A DNA stretch of 55,323 bases, taken from the NCBI GenBank assembly GCA_944325675.1, contig CALVAZ010000049.1, positions 1-55,323 of the forward strand. The letters run 5' to 3'. The translations under genes were made by a program, and so were the position numbers. Positions 1-53,666 of this stretch are shown piece after piece (within the stretch, counting starts at the first letter, position 1; the number at the start of each line of letters is the position of its first letter). Below the pieces are notes generated by a model. The model had not been told where the DNA came from. It worked only from the letters and a program-made list of their open reading frames with translations, and did not search any database. Source of the DNA: Candidatus Gastranaerophilales bacterium. GTDB lineage: Bacteria > Cyanobacteriota > Vampirovibrionia > Gastranaerophilales > Gastranaerophilaceae.

Positions 1-27
1 TCTAGCCTGAGATGCTGCCATACCCAT
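1..27 (-). CDS. MGMAASQAR-family protein, N-terminus only (runs off the window)
   Basis: Only the first nine codons are in the window, and they read MGMAASQAR on the minus strand. The same nine residues open the 648-residue protein at 40244, so this is the start of a paralogue. An AAAGGGA Shine-Dalgarno-like stretch lies about 9 nt ahead of the ATG. Further upstream is a sigma-28-like promoter with the same spacing as at the paralogue. The function of the family is unknown to me. Confidence rests on the identical N-terminus plus the matching promoter, not on length. Confidence 0.7.
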
Positions 28-63: not shown

Positions 64-124
64 TCTACGGCATCTTTATTTTTTTCTTTAATTTTTCTTT
101 TCTTTTTTGTAATATTTCGTTACA
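64..124 (-). promoter_or_regulatory. Sigma-28-like promoter with upstream TGTAACGAA box
   Basis: Read on the minus strand, this holds TGTAACGAA (124 to 116), then TAAAGAAA (90 to 83), an 11-nt spacer and GCCGTAGA (71 to 64). The start codon at 27 follows 36 nt later. The known sigma-28 (FliA/SigD) consensus is about TAAAGTTT-N11-GCCGATAA. The promoter at 40144-40204 has the same order and nearly the same spacing. Assignment to a sigma-28-type factor is inference. Confidence 0.5.
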
Positions 125-39110: not shown

Positions 39111-40148
39111 ATGAGCTTAGTAAAATTATTAAAGAAAAAAAGTAAAAAGTTACTTTTTACGACTCCTTCTCATAGTCAAAAAACAGTAATTTATAAACCG
39201 CTACGCTCACTTTACAGAATAGATATTTCTGAAACAGATACTCATAATCCAACAGAAGCCCTTTTAAAGGCTCAAGAACGCGCGCGAAAAATTTATAAGA
39301 CAAATTCTACACTATTTTTAATAAATGGCTCTACAAGCGGTATAATCGCCTCAGTTTTAACTTGTACAAATCCCGGTGAAAAAGTATTAATTTGGAGGGA
39401 TGCGCACCCAAGCCACTTGAACGCTGTAAGATTAGCAGGTGCAATACCAATATTTTATGATATAGAAACTGATGAAGACTGGGAAGTTCCGCTTGAAACT
39501 TCATGCGAAATGCTTGAAAATTATTTAAACGCGTACGATATAAAAACCTTGATTATAACATCTCCAACGTATGAAGGAATAGTCTCAGACATCAGAAAAA
39601 TAAAAGCAATTTGTGAAAAACATAATGTATATTTAATAGTAGACGAGGCACATGGTGCTTTGTATCCATTTTCTGACAGATTACCTGAAAGTGCAGTTAG
39701 AATTGCTGATTTTACAATTCAATCACTACACAAAACAGCTGGCGGGCTTAACCCTACTGCACTTCTACACTGCAACTGTAATCTGAATACTCAAAAAGCA
39801 CTGGATATGATAAATACAACTTCCCCCTCATACCCGCTTTTAGCCTCAATTGAGGAAAATATAAATTACTTGAATAGTTGGTGGGGAAGACGGAAATTAG
39901 ACCAGTTGATAGATGAATTAGAAATTTTGAGAGAAGAATGTCAAAATTGCCAATTTTTTGGAGATGACATAACAAAAATTCTAGTAAAAACTCCTGAACT
40001 AAGCGGTCCTGAATTATCCGAAATATTATTCGAAGACTTTAATGTAGAAGATGAAAAAACAAATGAAAAATCAACAATGCTTTTGTGCGGGATAGGTACA
40101 GAAAAAAATAAGATTAACAAACTTAAAAATGCATTATTAAGTTTGTAA
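39111..40148 (+). CDS. Orn/Lys/Arg decarboxylase-family PLP protein, short form
   Basis: The 345-residue protein has the large domain of the OKR decarboxylase family: TPSHSQKTVIYKPLRSLY, FLINGSTSGIIASVL, RDAHPSHLNAVRLAGAIP, LIVDEAHGALYPF and the PLP-lysine block SLHKTAGGLNPTALL. The C-terminal domain is much reduced compared with the usual 480 or so residues. Some relatives act on lysine or arginine to make polyamines. Whether this one decarboxylates is unknown. It is co-transcribed with the PilZ gene (2-bp gap). Confidence 0.85.
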   Translation: MSLVKLLKKKSKKLLFTTPSHSQKTVIYKPLRSLYRIDISETDTHNPTEALLKAQERARKIYKTNSTLFLINGSTSGIIASVLTCTNPGEKVLIWRDAHPSHLNAVRLAGAIPIFYDIETDEDWEVPLETSCEMLENYLNAYDIKTLIITSPTYEGIVSDIRKIKAICEKHNVYLIVDEAHGALYPFSDRLPESAVRIADFTIQSLHKTAGGLNPTALLHCNCNLNTQKALDMINTTSPSYPLLASIEENINYLNSWWGRRKLDQLIDELEILREECQNCQFFGDDITKILVKTPELSGPELSEILFEDFNVEDEKTNEKSTMLLCGIGTEKNKINKLKNALLSL

Positions 40149-40204
40149 CAATTTGTTAATAAAACGATTTAATAATTAAAGATTTCAATAAATAAAGCCG
40201 ATTA
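40144..40204 (+). promoter_or_regulatory. Sigma-28-like promoter with upstream TGTAACA box
   Basis: TGTAACA (40144-40150), 26 nt, TAAAGATT (40177-40184), 12 nt and GCCGATTA (40197-40204), then 39 nt to the ATG at 40244. The known FliA consensus is TAAAGTTT-N11-GCCGATAA. The same arrangement is found before the paralogue at 27 on the minus strand. The box overlaps the end of the decarboxylase-like gene. Confidence 0.6.
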
Positions 40205-40243
40205 CCGTAGTAAGGATACAATCAGGAAAGGACAACGCCAACT

Positions 40244-42190
40244 ATGGGAATGGCAGCATCACAAGCAAGATTATTGTCAATCACATCTCGTATGGCTGAT
40301 AACGAGTTAAGATCTCAGATTATCAACAATTCGAAGATGCGTCTTGCAACTGAAAGCTCAAAGGTAAGTGAAGAATACATCAACGCCTTGAATTCAGCTA
40401 CTATGATGATGTCAAATTATGACACGGCAGGCGAAAGTCAATACCAAAAATTAAGCTTTAACTCATTGACGAGTTACAGCTCATACAATAACCAATATGG
40501 TTTGGTAAATGCGAACGGTAAATTATTAGTATCAGAAAGAGATGCTGCAAACTATCGTAATGTACTTGATAAAGGTGGAGATTTAGATGACTTTTTGGCA
40601 GTATATGGACTAGAGTATAAATCAACATACTTTACAAGTGAAACCCTGGGTGCAGAACAAATTAATTTTGAAGATATCAACAAAACATTCACTATCCAAG
40701 AGTTAGAAGAAATGTACTACGGAAATGATGATAAGGGTATACTAAGTTACAACAACGCATTACAATCTTCAGAATATGTTAATTATGCCGATTACTACGA
40801 TCAATTTCTTTTAGCACAAGAAAATTATAAACTTCAAGCCATAGATACAATAAACAGTTCTTTGGGATTTAGTGATTCAAACTCAACTTGGTCACAAAAG
40901 TACACTACATACGTCACAAATGGTGGTAGTGATAACATAAGTGACATGTACAATAATGGCGTTTTATGGATTAAAAATCAAATAACAAGCCTAGTTAATT
41001 CAAATAAATTACCAACAACAACGCCATTTTACAATGAAATGATGAGCTACATAAATAGTATAAATTACCAAAATGGCCAAGTAATATTGACCGGTACAGA
41101 CGAATGCACCGTTGATCCAGACACAGGAAACATATATATGGGAGCAACTTACGAACTTGATGATGGAAGTCTAGCTACTGAATTATTGGCCACTAAAAAT
41201 GATGATGGAACATATACGATAAGTGTAAACCCTGACATAGAAGAATACCTTGCAAATAACAGCACTAGTATAAATTTTGGGGGCCAAGCTTCTATAACTG
41301 TGAGCGATTTCAATAATTCTTTTACATACAATGTTGTTGAAACCGATGAAGAAGGCTCTTATACACAGACATACACTTATAAATATGATGAAACTACAAA
41401 CACAGGCAAAACGTCTTGGAACACAGAAATTAATGAATTTGCTGGTATAGTATCAAATTTATTTTTGATGTACAAAGCTGGAGTTGTTGATGCACTGAAT
41501 TTAGATGCTTACGCAAATTTAAGTAACCCAGTTGTTTTGGATGCAAAAAACAAGCGTGACGAAGCATTCTCAAAATTAACTGAATTGCTTTTTGGAAAAA
41601 ATAATAACTTTAAATTAGATGATGCATCCATACTAGCCAGTCCTGAGGGAGTTTTAAATTGGGCATACCAGAATGGAGGAATCACAACATCTGCACTTGA
41701 AATAATCGAAAAAATTTACATACTCGACACATTATTCAATGTGTACGGAGAACCTTCTGCCGGATGGATTGATGTTAATAACCCGGATGAAAATGCTGAC
41801 GCTAAAGTTCAATGGTATACAAACTTGTTCAACCGTATGCAACAAGGATATAGCGTTTTAGAGGATGGCCTTGCTTCAAGCAATGAATGGATTGAATTTG
41901 CACTTGAAAGCGGTTTGGTAACAATGGAACAGGTTGACAAAAATAACAACTGGACTTCTACAATCTACACAAATTGCAGCGACATAACAGAAGTTACAGA
42001 TGACACCGCAATTACAATAGCTGAAGCTGAATACAATAAAGCGATGAACAATATTGAAAATAAAGATAAACGATTTGATATGGAATTGAAAAATATTGAC
42101 ACGGAACACAATTCATTGCAAACAGAATATGATTCAGTAAAATCAGTAATCGATAAAAATATTGAAAGATCATTCAAAATTTATTCATAA
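40244..42190 (+). CDS. MGMAASQAR-family protein, 648 residues, sigma-28-like promoter
   Basis: I do not know a characterised family. The N-terminus MGMAASQARLLSITSRMADN and the following 50 residues are helical, as is the C-terminus (about 590-648: NIENKDKRFDMELKNID, EYDSVKSVIDKNIERSF). The long centre is rich in Asn, Thr, Ser and Tyr with beta-like stretches (GSYTQTYTYKYDETTNTGK). Conserved helical ends around a variable middle recall flagellin, hook-associated and other axial proteins, but no direct similarity to them is seen. There is no signal peptide. Its promoter looks sigma-28-dependent. A second family member starts at 27 on the minus strand. An exported filament or tip role is a hypothesis. 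Confidence 0.7.
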   Translation: MGMAASQARLLSITSRMADNELRSQIINNSKMRLATESSKVSEEYINALNSATMMMSNYDTAGESQYQKLSFNSLTSYSSYNNQYGLVNANGKLLVSERDAANYRNVLDKGGDLDDFLAVYGLEYKSTYFTSETLGAEQINFEDINKTFTIQELEEMYYGNDDKGILSYNNALQSSEYVNYADYYDQFLLAQENYKLQAIDTINSSLGFSDSNSTWSQKYTTYVTNGGSDNISDMYNNGVLWIKNQITSLVNSNKLPTTTPFYNEMMSYINSINYQNGQVILTGTDECTVDPDTGNIYMGATYELDDGSLATELLATKNDDGTYTISVNPDIEEYLANNSTSINFGGQASITVSDFNNSFTYNVVETDEEGSYTQTYTYKYDETTNTGKTSWNTEINEFAGIVSNLFLMYKAGVVDALNLDAYANLSNPVVLDAKNKRDEAFSKLTELLFGKNNNFKLDDASILASPEGVLNWAYQNGGITTSALEIIEKIYILDTLFNVYGEPSAGWIDVNNPDENADAKVQWYTNLFNRMQQGYSVLEDGLASSNEWIEFALESGLVTMEQVDKNNNWTSTIYTNCSDITEVTDDTAITIAEAEYNKAMNNIENKDKRFDMELKNIDTEHNSLQTEYDSVKSVIDKNIERSFKIYS

Positions 42191-42223: not shown

Positions 42224-42325
42224 AATTGAATCTTTATAAAGATATAAAGATTATGTAAGGAAATCAAGGTTGGAACAAATTTTGAATTATAATGTTAACA
42301 TAGGAAATAAAAATTGGAGATTGAA

Positions 42326-42610
42326 ATGCAAACAGTAAACGAAATTTTAAACAAATTGGAAACAGCTGATAATTCAACTAAAAATGAATTAGAAAATATA
42401 TTAGTAAATATTGGAACTTCAGCACTTCCGCAGTTAGTTGATCAACTTCAAGTTGTAAGAGGCATCAAACGTGGTGTTGTAGCAATGACATTGATTAGAA
42501 TAGGTGATGCATCAGTTAAATATCTTAAAAAAGCCGCTGAAGATAATAAAGATTTTGAATGGGTTGCCGAATATTTAATTCGTGAAATTGAAGGTGCCAA
42601 AGCTGCGTAG
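42326..42610 (+). CDS. Small HEAT-repeat-like protein
   Basis: The 94-residue protein is wholly helical, with repeated paired helices (LENILVNIGTSALPQLVDQL, GVVAMTLIRIGDASVKYLKK) in the style of HEAT or PBS-lyase repeats. Such modules bind other proteins. The ATG at 42326 has GGAGA 5 nt before it; a TTG four codons upstream is less suitable. A TATAAT lies at 42288-42293. It is a single-gene unit with its own terminator. The partner is unknown. Confidence 0.7.
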   Translation: MQTVNEILNKLETADNSTKNELENILVNIGTSALPQLVDQLQVVRGIKRGVVAMTLIRIGDASVKYLKKAAEDNKDFEWVAEYLIREIEGAKAA

Positions 42611-42678: not shown

Positions 42679-43884
42679 ATGAACATGAATAAACAAATGA
42701 AGTACACATGTTTATTTGGGGGAGGTGCCATAAGAGGTGCTGCCTATGCAGGCGCAATTAAGGCACTAAAAGATTTAGGAATCACTATCGGAAATATAGG
42801 CGGATCTTCAGTAGGTTCAATAGTTGCAGCACTTCTTGCTGTTGGGTATGACGCTGAAGATATACGGGAAATCTTTTTAGATGTAAATTTTGACTTATTT
42901 AAAGATTTTCAATTTGGACTTGGCGCTAAATTTGCGCTAAGCAAAGGTGAGCTTTTTTTAGATTGGATAAGAGAGTTGCTAGAAAAAAAATACTACGGCG
43001 ACGATTACCACAAAGGTCACAACAAAGCTGTAAGGTTCAAAGATTTAGAAAAAGACTTATTTATCATAACAACAGATTTATCGAACTTTGAATGCAAGGA
43101 ATTTTCAAAATTTGAAACTCCTGACTTTGAAATTGCAACAGCTGTAAGAATTTCATGCAGTATGCCCGGTTTAATGAAGCCTTTAGAATATAATAATACC
43201 CTTTTGGTTGACGGAGATTTACAAAAGAGTGTTCCGATGTGGAAGCTCTCAAATAACTTATTAAAGGAAAATGAAAGAGTTCTTGAATTTCGTTTAGAAG
43301 GTGATTTTGACGGCTCGAACCAAAACGCTTTAGATTATGTAAATACAATATATAGCTGTATTACATCAATATCCACCTCATTTATTGTAGATTTATTCGG
43401 TAAAAAGGACAAATTTGATTATGTAGTAATAAATACAGGGAATGTAATTGTAGTAGACTTCAACTATCCGAAAGAAAAACGAGAAGATTTAATACGAAAC
43501 GGTTACGAACAAACTATGAACTACTTCAAAAAAATTCTTCCAAGCAAAAAAGAAAACCTTTTGAATAACTATTATAAAATTAATAAAACGTTAAAAAAAG
43601 TAGAGAAGTACATCGAAAATAAAAAAATTATCAAAGCAAAACATACAATTTCGGAATTATTTGAAGACTTATGCGACATGCAGGATACTTTAGACAATCA
43701 ACTAACAGATAAACTTAAAAGATTCAGTAAAACATTCTCGCATAACCTAAGATATCCGGCCTTGTTTGGTAAAGTCAAACTAACAGACGAAACCGCTGTG
43801 AAGCGAGACCTAAAATCAATCATAGAAAATATTTCCGAAAGAATTTATGAATTAGAAGACTATATTGTTAAATTTCCCATTTGA
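42679..43884 (+). CDS. Patatin-like phospholipase
   Basis: The 401-residue protein has the oxyanion block FGGGAIRGAAYAGAIKAL, the nucleophile motif GGSSVGS (GxSxG) and the catalytic Asp in LLVDGDLQKSVP. These form the Ser-Asp dyad of RssA-type and patatin lipases, which hydrolyse acyl chains of phospholipids. The C-terminal 130 residues are helical and coiled (NNYYKINKTLKKVEKYIE). No signal peptide is visible, so it is cytoplasmic unless exported by another system. It is followed by the tRNA-Leu gene. Confidence 0.88.
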   Translation: MNMNKQMKYTCLFGGGAIRGAAYAGAIKALKDLGITIGNIGGSSVGSIVAALLAVGYDAEDIREIFLDVNFDLFKDFQFGLGAKFALSKGELFLDWIRELLEKKYYGDDYHKGHNKAVRFKDLEKDLFIITTDLSNFECKEFSKFETPDFEIATAVRISCSMPGLMKPLEYNNTLLVDGDLQKSVPMWKLSNNLLKENERVLEFRLEGDFDGSNQNALDYVNTIYSCITSISTSFIVDLFGKKDKFDYVVINTGNVIVVDFNYPKEKREDLIRNGYEQTMNYFKKILPSKKENLLNNYYKINKTLKKVEKYIENKKIIKAKHTISELFEDLCDMQDTLDNQLTDKLKRFSKTFSHNLRYPALFGKVKLTDETAVKRDLKSIIENISERIYELEDYIVKFPI

Positions 43885-51165: not shown

Positions 51166-52131
51166 ATGCCTATAAGACATGTAATGACCTTTCAATCAAG
51201 AAGACCACAAGTGGCTGTATTTAATAGAACAACCATAATAAATCAGCCAAGCTGCGGCCGTGTTGGAAACGGTGCATTTTGGGGTGGATTTTTAGGTGGA
51301 TTATTTTCTGGTATCGGTAATATTTTTATGAGCACAAGAACCCTTAATTTGGGTGGTCAAAATCCATATGCATATTTAAATAACAACCTAGGACAAGGGC
51401 AAGCACCCGCACAAGCACAAAATAATAAGGATTTAGAAGTATTACAAAAGTTTTATGGAGACAACTACATAATAGAACAAACTAGTGGAAAATTTTATGC
51501 AAAACCAAAGAATGGCGGCACAATTATAGAAGGTAACGATTTCAACGAAATGCTTGAAAAATTATCAAAACCAAGTGAACCGAAACTGGAACAACAAAAA
51601 AAGGTTGAAGAAGTTGCAGCAACAAAAGCAGCTCAAAAACCTGAAGGTGCAGGAGGGAGTGATCCTGCAGATGAATATAAAATAACAGAACTACCTGGAA
51701 ACAAAACATATAAAGTACAAAATGGTAACACCTGGTATGGTATTGTGACAGCAAAATATGATATTCCACAAGGTGTTAATGTAAAAGACGTTGCATACGC
51801 CCTTGCTGCAGCAAACTCAGGTGCTGAAGGCGCTGAAGGAATGCGGCTTGCAAAACAAGGTGTATACTTTAAAGTTGGAGATAATATACAACTACCTGAC
51901 AAGTTAATTGTAAACGGACAAGAAATTTCATTAAAATCTGATTACGAAAATCATGATGTAGCACAACAAAAATATGATTTCGTAAAAGCAACAAACTGGG
52001 CTGTAACTGTAACTCAAGTTGGTTCAAAATGGCAACTACACAAAAACGATGAACTACAAGGTACATATAATACAAAGGCTGAAGCTGAGTCCGCACAAAA
52101 AGCGCTCATGCAATCCGCCGCAGATGAATAA
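51166..52131 (+). CDS. Gly-rich paralogue A with LysM-like C-terminal part
   Basis: This 321-residue protein and the next one (52227) share the same N-terminal plan. After a basic stretch comes a short Asn/Ile strand, a glycine-zipper segment (GNGAFWGGFLGGLFSG), AYLNNN and a conserved module of about 45 residues (DLEVLQKFYGDNYIIEQ, GKFYAK, IEGNDFNEML). After a linker, the C-terminal part YKVQNGNTWYGIV with YFKVGDNIQLP looks like a LysM repeat, which binds peptidoglycan. There is no signal peptide. GGGAG precedes the ATG. A wall-attached role is inferred. Confidence 0.65.
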   Translation: MPIRHVMTFQSRRPQVAVFNRTTIINQPSCGRVGNGAFWGGFLGGLFSGIGNIFMSTRTLNLGGQNPYAYLNNNLGQGQAPAQAQNNKDLEVLQKFYGDNYIIEQTSGKFYAKPKNGGTIIEGNDFNEMLEKLSKPSEPKLEQQKKVEEVAATKAAQKPEGAGGSDPADEYKITELPGNKTYKVQNGNTWYGIVTAKYDIPQGVNVKDVAYALAAANSGAEGAEGMRLAKQGVYFKVGDNIQLPDKLIVNGQEISLKSDYENHDVAQQKYDFVKATNWAVTVTQVGSKWQLHKNDELQGTYNTKAEAESAQKALMQSAADE

Positions 52132-52226: not shown

Positions 52227-53666
52227 ATGGTACACAGGATATACAGACCATGGATGAGTTCACAGAGACCAATTCTCATGAACCGAAACATTATAATCGA
52301 CCAACGGTCACATTGCCATCACACTGGTAATGGTGGTTTTTGGGGCGCATTTTTAGGTGGTTTCCTCGGTGGTGGATTGCTTAACTCTGGTTTTTTGGGA
52401 AATATATTCGGCATTGGCACCGGAATGGGTGGTATGCAGGGTGGTCTGTACGGAGGTGGGGCATATCCTTCAACAATACCAGGAGCAACGAACAGTTACG
52501 GATATCTTAATCAAAATGCAGGAAGCGCACCAGCAACACAAAGCACCACGAAGGATCTTAGTGTTTTACAGAAATTCTACGGTGACAGTTACATTATAGA
52601 AGAACTAGATGGCAAATTTTACGCAAAAGACAAAGACGGTAACAGCGTTATAGAAGGCAACGATTTTCAAGACATGCTCGATAAGTTGGGAGGGAAGGAA
52701 CCTGCAAGTGAGAATCCCGAAACACAGAATCTGAACGAAATAAAACAAGCAGCACAACGTCAAGGACAGTTGATCAAAGCAAAAGAAGAAGCACAAAAAT
52801 TCATGACAACTAAAGGTGTCATAGCCTCTGGCGCAAAGATAAGCGTAATTGAAGATGGAGAAAATTTTGCCCAATATAAATTAACGTTAAAAGATGGCAC
52901 AACAAAAATAGTACGAGATATACCTACTGCGTACAAAGAACTGGGAATAGACCCCGCGAATGCAGATAATACACCTGAAATTGAAACTGAGCCACCTAAA
53001 GCAGAAACGCCTGCGACAGCAACACCTGCAGCAACAGCGCATGCTGCTACTAAACCTAAAACTTCATTTAAAGGTTGGGAAAGAATAGCAACAAGCGATA
53101 GAAATGAAACAGTCGGATATGGCGGTAACTACCAAATAGATGGCAAGGCACAAGCATATAATCCAAATGACATTGAAAACGCTAAATCCGCACAAGAAGT
53201 TGCCAGATACATGCTTTTAACAGAAATGGGCCTGCCTGCACCAATAGATGCAAGCGAAGATTTGATTAATGAAATCATACAACATAACCCTAGCGTATTT
53301 AATAAAGACGGTTCTGTAAAAGAAAATGCTGATTGGACGAAACTTGATTTACCAACTGCTGAATACCTTAAACAAAAAGGTTATCCTATAAAAGAAAAAG
53401 CAACTTCAAATACAAATTCAGCACAACTATCAGAAGATGCACAAAAGTGGAACGCCGCCCACCCTGACAAGCAAGTAACTATTGGTGAAGATGGGAAGTA
53501 CCAAACTAAAGTTAAAACTCGAACCGGGATTTACACTGTTAAAGCTGATTCATTTGCCGAATTGCAAAAAGCTGCCGAAGCGAGAGTAAACCGCGAAAAC
53601 ACAAGGCAGTTCAATACTGGCATGAGTTCTTACACACAGCTAGGAAGCTACATGCAAATACATTAA
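52227..53666 (+). CDS. Gly-rich paralogue B, 479 residues
   Basis: The protein repeats the plan of paralogue A: GNGGFWGAFLGGFLGGGLL (glycine zipper), a longer Gly-rich run, SYGYLNQNAG and the shared module DLSVLQKFYGDSYIIEELDG with GKFYAK and IEGNDFQDMLDKL. The remainder differs: a Pro/Ala/Thr linker (near residues 250-275) and then two related stretches, one at KGWERIATSDRNETVGYGG and one ending in YTVKADSFAELQKAAEA. No LysM is obvious. There is no signal peptide. The second gene of a tandem duplication, it has its own copy of the promoter, so the pair are probably co-regulated. The function is unknown. Confidence 0.65.
   Translation: MVHRIYRPWMSSQRPILMNRNIIIDQRSHCHHTGNGGFWGAFLGGFLGGGLLNSGFLGNIFGIGTGMGGMQGGLYGGGAYPSTIPGATNSYGYLNQNAGSAPATQSTTKDLSVLQKFYGDSYIIEELDGKFYAKDKDGNSVIEGNDFQDMLDKLGGKEPASENPETQNLNEIKQAAQRQGQLIKAKEEAQKFMTTKGVIASGAKISVIEDGENFAQYKLTLKDGTTKIVRDIPTAYKELGIDPANADNTPEIETEPPKAETPATATPAATAHAATKPKTSFKGWERIATSDRNETVGYGGNYQIDGKAQAYNPNDIENAKSAQEVARYMLLTEMGLPAPIDASEDLINEIIQHNPSVFNKDGSVKENADWTKLDLPTAEYLKQKGYPIKEKATSNTNSAQLSEDAQKWNAAHPDKQVTIGEDGKYQTKVKTRTGIYTVKADSFAELQKAAEARVNRENTRQFNTGMSSYTQLGSYMQIH

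Follow-up and report, generated by a model that had tools for sequence, protein, structure and literature searches.

The MGMAASQAR-family gene that starts at position 40244 of contig C49 from a Gastranaerophilales metagenome-assembled genome (MAG) is preceded by a sigma-28-type promoter and a conserved upstream box, both of which recur in front of its homologues. This contig of 55,323 nucleotides is the whole stretch of DNA that was analyzed and is referred to as the window. According to our main interpretation, to which we assign a probability of about two in three, a FliA promoter combined with a regulator site would drive one of 7 to 15 late-gene paralogues belonging to a type III export system of flagellar origin that lacks flagellin.

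The source MAG comprises 1.47 Mb in 120 contigs, is 85.9% complete and was studied genome-wide by pattern searches together with the analysis of chosen stretches. The term host family denotes the taxonomic family of this MAG, which was sampled with 38 genomes including the source MAG itself, and the class-wide comparison set consisted of 117 genomes, including a family of 34 large genomes without FliA. The orthologous loci of the window were drawn from Gastranaerophilales MAGs. A partial flagellar gene set of gut Gastranaerophilales has been on record for more than 10 years and has remained unexplained (PMC4040986, PMC5877343). In the open-access literature, no description was found of the MGMAASQAR family, a FliA regulon or a type III system in Gastranaerophilales.

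Sigma-28-type promoters upstream of the MGMAASQAR genes

The original prediction had placed the same ordered elements before 40244 on the plus strand and before 27 on the minus strand, and reading of the sequence located both sets at these positions (Table 1), with octamer-to-octamer spacers of 12 and 11 nt and distances of 39 and 36 nt between the -10 element and the ATG, as had been claimed. The site before 40244 has the structure TAAAGATT-N12-GCCGATTA, i.e. TAAAG-N15-GCCG, and the same block reads, for example, TAAAGTTT-N12-GCCGATAA in the orthologous loci, where its spacer is one base longer than that of the classical FliA consensus TAAAGTTT-N11-GCCGATAA (quoted in PMC2859248). A conserved TTTGTAACAATTTGTTAATAAA upstream and a conserved GCCGATAACCGTAGTAAGGATACA downstream accompany the promoter block in these loci, with variable sequence in between. 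The search pattern TAAAGA-N10-13-GCCG that had been proposed along with the two sites recovered the second one (chance expectation 0.00) but missed that before 40244, since the gaps counted from the hexamer TAAAGA are 14 and 13 nt.

Table 1. Promoter elements and MGMAASQAR-family genes in the window
Feature	Position	Strand	Remarks
Upstream box, consensus TGTWACAAWTTSTTAAYA	40143..40160	+	TGTAAC at 40144; putative dimeric regulator site, centre ~-60
Sigma-28-type -35 octamer TAAAGATT	40177..40184	+	From the sequence and comparison with orthologous and family upstream regions
Sigma-28-type -10 octamer GCCGATTA	40197..40204	+	Transcript start predicted near 40211 (inferred position)
Shine-Dalgarno-like AGGAAAGGA	40224..40232	+	Read from the sequence; kept in most orthologous loci L006-L016
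MGMAASQAR-family gene, 648 aa	40244..42190	+	ATG at 40244; N helix 2-51, variable middle, C helix 587-647
Upstream box of second, truncated copy, TGTAACGAAATATTACAA	107..124	-	TGTAAC at 124
-35 octamer TAAAGAAA of second copy	83..90	-	Starts at 90 on the minus strand
-10 octamer GCCGTAGA of second copy	64..71	-	Starts at 71 on the minus strand
Start of second MGMAASQAR gene	1..27	-	Gene cut by the contig end

Positions 1-124 of the window and the end of contig C30 (L047 10435-10558) carry a near-identical promoter and MGMAASQAR gene start, so these two copies are duplicates and mutually non-independent. Contig C85 likewise ends within a gene of this family, and it seems that the repeated family breaks the assembly.

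The upstream regions of 113 MGMAASQAR-family genes (109 distinct) from the source MAG, GenBank MAGs and about 30 host-family genomes were searched with the test pattern TAAAG-N15-[N]CCG/GTCG, the -10 core being located 30 to 70 nt before the ATG. This pattern was detected in 82 of the 109 distinct family upstream regions, whereas 2 of 296 control regions contained it (Fisher p ~4e-59, a value qualified by the relatedness of the genes), and shuffled upstream regions yielded it at 0.00055 per upstream. When the gap was allowed to be 14 or 15 nt, 91 of the 113 regions were positive. Among the 22 negatives, 17 have one other block in common, and those that were checked belong to the paralogue at the head of the fli cluster; one of the remainder belongs to a cluster-internal 108-aa gene, and three of the last four are one base off the pattern. 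The spacer between the octamers is mostly 12 rather than 11 nt among the family promoters. Far from occurring at the frequency given by base composition, which would have spoken against the original prediction, the pattern is present far above chance ahead of homologues in related genomes. These data clearly indicate a solid promoter grammar of the MGMAASQAR family.

A strict version of the pattern, TAAAGTTT-N10-12-GCCGAT, resulted in 118 sites in the 38 host-family genomes versus 2 for the reversed pattern, and in 3 versus 14 sites in the 34 FliA-less relatives (summed counts in both cases). Of 30 strict sites sampled at one per genome, four are located ahead of MGxxASQAR genes, which is about 20-fold above expectation. 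The other sampled sites precede recurring small proteins without assignment, including two orthologue pairs, as well as an EF-hand-like protein and a 90-aa gene of the fli cluster. In the source MAG, sigma-28-like sites were also found before genes for an HD-GYP-type (HD_5) protein (L050:4378-5610) and a 587-aa EF-hand-like protein (L054:5209-6972), and they point to a broader regulon, perhaps extending to cyclic-di-GMP control.

A relaxed promoter scan of the same genome returned eight matches, of which those on C43, C73 and C90 and that at position 42547 of the window fall inside coding sequences and were treated as chance occurrences. The last one lies within the gene at 42314-42610 (+) and is probably fortuitous. 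In almost all orthologous loci, the MGMAASQAR gene is followed by this gene, which encodes a protein of 94-98 aa, and by that of a patatin-like phospholipase at 42679-43884 (+).

A conserved box upstream of the -35 element

The 18-nt box TGTWACAAWTTSTTAAYA has its best match starting at -34 or -33 from TAAAG in 78 of the 82 promoters. Alignment on the -35 element revealed that conservation over positions -34 to -17 almost equals that of the promoter itself, whereas positions -60 to -36 are not conserved. In 97.6% of the promoters the box scored above the 95th percentile of shuffled sequences; this figure represents an upper estimate because the box matrix was derived from the same sequences. 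The centre of the box is located about 26 nt before the -35 element, or roughly at -60 from the expected transcript start. Two half-sites can be recognized: as a direct repeat they gave a correlation of 0.89 with a period of 10 nt, and as an inverted repeat one of 0.94 at 8 nt, both readings fitting about equally well. Several sigma-28 sites of other genes carry the box either in the same position or closer by 10-11 nt, and such a shift by one helical turn is the behaviour of a bound regulator. The added activator box of the original prediction can accordingly be retained as a conserved two-half-site element at a fixed place, but its activating role is only putative. A regulator acting upstream of a sigma-28 promoter would be rare, yet it is precedented by the CRP protein of Escherichia coli, which acts on sigma-28 promoters from -49.5 (PMC2859248).

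The sigma factor reading the promoters

The FliA_WhiG model TIGR02479 matched above its curated cut-off in 37 of the 38 host-family genomes, with scores of about 234-248 bits, and the only genome below the cut-off was the incomplete source MAG. In the relatives, fliA is located downstream of a TlyC-like gene; in the source MAG, contig C93 breaks off within the corresponding gene at position 3, and fliA is accordingly expected beyond the contig end. A complete lack of sigma-28-type factors, which would have contradicted the predicted sigma-28-type regulon, is therefore not what was observed: FliA is encoded in the lineage, the gap in the source MAG coincides with the locus, and the promoter enrichment at homologues supports the regulon as well. 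It is very likely that FliA reads the MGMAASQAR promoters.

The promoters might instead be read by another group-3 sigma factor, namely the SigF-like protein encoded on contig C75, which scores 124 bits with FliA_WhiG in a MAG where FliA itself was not found and which also has counterparts in FliA-less genomes. A comparable weaker match is present in 117 of 117 genomes, yet the promoter pattern remains at background level in the FliA-less family, and the fliA gene of the source MAG falls in an assembly gap, which makes this assignment highly improbable. Directly after flhB, contig C30 additionally encodes a 220-aa protein (L047:1046-1708) in which only sigma-70 region 4 is recognizable.

Features of the MGMAASQAR proteins

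Each of the 38 host-family genomes contains 7-15 MGMAASQAR copies. The 648-aa product of the gene at 40244 was not assigned to any Pfam or NCBIfam family. Its paralogues in the source MAG have the first 50 and the last 45 residues in common (30-78% identical among the long forms) and unrelated middles, and the orthologues display the same gradient from conserved ends to a variable middle, with the C-terminal helix conserved as strongly as the N-terminal one. The predicted structure of the 648-aa protein has a confident globular middle, whereas both terminal helices are of low confidence. Hydropathy analysis of the family proteins revealed no membrane segment and no hydrophobic signal peptide, i.e. 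no Sec signal.

In three flagellated families, the MGMAASQAR protein has a nearly constant length of 109 aa and consists of a helix, an LDPxSPxA turn and a second helix, so that the long forms resemble this hairpin enlarged by an insertion of 200-700 aa in its turn. From the distribution and the alignment, rather than from a tree, we infer that the long forms descended from the hairpin by insertion. Searches with the 109-aa family in Pfam, NCBIfam, PHROG and PDB sequences returned non-specific coiled-coil matches only, Flagellin_N (PF00669) matched neither the MGMAASQAR-family proteins nor any protein of the host-family genomes, and no sequence match to the needle protein SctF of type III secretion systems was obtained, although sequence searches easily miss short helical hairpins. 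A whole-model Foldseek search against PDB yielded nothing at E<0.001.

The exported filament-like protein of the original prediction would agree with a flagellin-like layout, with the absence of flagellin and with the location of family members beside export genes. Export through the flagellar gate is likely, whereas assembly into a fibre is plausible but tentative. The same sigma-28 control would be compatible with soluble secreted effectors or adhesins whose terminal helices serve as export and packing tags and form no fibre. The very variable middles of 200-700 aa in multiple copies and the sigma-28 sites before unrelated putative substrates such as the EF-hand-like protein fit such products, which we nevertheless regard as unlikely, given that an N-terminal export tag does not need an equally conserved C-terminal helix and that the 109-aa form is made of two helices and nothing else. 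Intracellular coiled-coil scaffolds or basal-body export chaperones of the FliJ/SctO type, under sigma-28 control like some flagellar chaperones, might likewise be suggested by the 109-aa helical hairpin of the relatives and by weak coiled-coil matches, including SpaM (SctO) with two members (best E 0.49). Such a role is improbable for 7-15 paralogues with large unrelated insertions, a pattern of surface-protein evolution rather than that of a chaperone or stalk.

Two adjacent, related proteins of the window (51166-52131 and 52227-53666) without Pfam match contain a glycine-rich segment after a similar start.

Export apparatus, rod proteins and flagellin

The source MAG contains genes for FlhA, FliE, FliF, FliH, FlhB, FliI, FliP, FliQ, FliR and a FliM/N-type protein, and hence the components FlhA, FlhB, FliP, FliQ, FliR, FliI and FliF that define a flagellar type III export apparatus. 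One MGMAASQAR copy is oriented divergently beside fliM-P-Q-R on contig C85, and another one opens the cluster on contig C27. At 12 of 12 loci the cluster-opening copy is followed by genes designated YKND (~270-285 aa) and LEMN (90-108 aa), after which a short family member of 108 aa and then fliE-fliF-(fliG by position)-fliH-flhA are usually found. The YKND protein (270-320 aa including all lineages, start MSYKNDSYLVI; L209-L220) accompanies the MGMAASQAR family in flagellated as well as flagellin-free lineages and has no match among known families. On contig C71, a second protein (L042:6097-7608) resembles FlhA only over the latter's cytosolic C-terminal half, to which an unrelated N-terminal region is fused.

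Flagellin, and with it the filament of a motility flagellum, was detected in none of the 38 host-family genomes and in 27 of the 117 genomes of the class. Flg_bb_rod matches number 1-4 in the host family versus, as a rule, 5-11 in the flagellated families; FlgB/C-, FlgF- and FlgG-like rod proteins are encoded near fliA in the relatives, and MGMAASQAR copies are confined to rod-bearing genomes (56 of 56). Contig C92 of the source MAG carries FlgF/G, FlgA, FlgH, FlgI and FlgJ-like genes in a canonical cluster (L055). No FlgG match comparable to that of C92 was found in the other host-family genomes, the cluster was not seen as such in genomes of the same genus, and the tetranucleotide distance of C92 (0.185) is toward the upper end of the 0.10-0.22 range. 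The cluster may therefore be a contamination; otherwise, it is real and unusual.

Soo et al. (2014) concluded that the partial flagellar sets cannot encode a functional flagellum and deduced that there are non-motile members (PMC4040986), and the MGMAASQAR genes could in line with this be functionless remnants of a flagellum that was lost. Decay is hardly credible for intact export genes, an intact fliA and intact amplified paralogues with promoters conserved in the sampled host-family genomes.

A model of early and late export substrates

A flagellar hierarchy couples the production of early axial proteins to that of the basal body and leaves the late ones to FliA. The cluster-opening MGMAASQAR copy has no sigma-28 promoter and is preceded instead by a conserved block with TATAAT and TTGACTTT, whereas essentially all scattered copies have a sigma-28 promoter. 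This split mirrors the flagellar hierarchy and provides the best single argument for sequential export substrates.

In the proposed mechanism, FliA would transcribe the MGMAASQAR genes, gated by a dimeric regulator bound at about -60. The products, devoid of a Sec signal, would leave the cell through the FlhA/FlhB/FliPQR gate, the copy in the fli cluster acting as early subunit and the sigma-28-controlled copies as late subunits. The two terminal helices may pack into the core of a tube or fibre like those of flagellar axial proteins, with the variable middles displayed outside. The family would have originated from the 109-aa two-helix protein of flagellated relatives by the insertion of large domains in the turn. 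The outcome could be a hitherto undescribed appendage, either an extracellular fibre or of the injection type, that stands on a flagellar basal body and combines a two-helix non-flagellin family, domain insertion and a FliA regulon with a dedicated co-regulator, a possibility to which we give somewhat less than an even chance.

Several points weigh against this model. Transcription by FliA and export are both predictions, and associations between genomes are confounded by phylogeny. The MGMAASQAR family has no sequence homology to any flagellar or needle protein, and the top VIA-align results, a Salmonella cap-filament chain and FlgK with Z ~6, are within the stated noise of that tool. Among flagellated relatives, the 109-aa form occurs alongside flagellin and for the most part has no sigma-28 promoter, and it is wholly absent from the flagellated family f4 and the partly flagellar family f6, so that a simple replacement of flagellin does not apply. 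FliG has no Pfam match and was named from gene position alone, and an exit through the outer membrane is hypothetical, FlgH and FlgI of C92 being possible contaminants.

Comparison with known systems

The promoters share with FliA/sigma-28 (SigD) late promoters the TAAAGTTT and GCCGATAA octamers at fixed spacing, the presence of FliA in the lineage and the late-gene position, but differ by a spacer of mostly 12 instead of 11 nt, a regulator box that is nearly always present and the non-flagellin family that is driven. The aer and trg genes of E. coli, activated by CRP (PMC2859248), likewise have a regulator site upstream of a sigma-28 promoter; there, only two promoters with a site centred at -49.5 were reported, whereas the host family regularly has a different sequence at about -60 or closer by one turn. 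Like flagellin (FliC) and the hook-associated axial proteins, the MGMAASQAR proteins have conserved and, by prediction, helical ends around a hypervariable middle, exist as many paralogues, are probably under sigma-28 control and lack a Sec signal, while sequence homology and PF00669 are missing and structural similarity is at noise level only.

The model offers a testable answer to the partial flagellar set, i.e. an export system that still works and has a sigma factor of its own, amplified substrates and a common promoter grammar, and would, if true, explain why half a flagellum is retained in flagellin-free gut bacteria. The flagellin-less basal bodies of Buchnera have also kept the export gate and rod and lost flagellin (PMC8109811), but no substrate family is known there; amplified candidate substrates and a retained FliA in the host family would supply the kind of substrates that these analogous structures are without. 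The non-flagellar type III secretion systems of Myxococcales and other bacteria (PMC3459982) are flagellum-derived export machines without filament as well. These injectisomes are characterized by the absence of FlgB, FlgC and FliE, whereas FliE and FlgB/FlgC-type rod proteins are present here and place the system outside that definition. If the model is true, bacteria of the animal and human gut would have taken a second route from the flagellum to something else, distinct from that of the injectisome.
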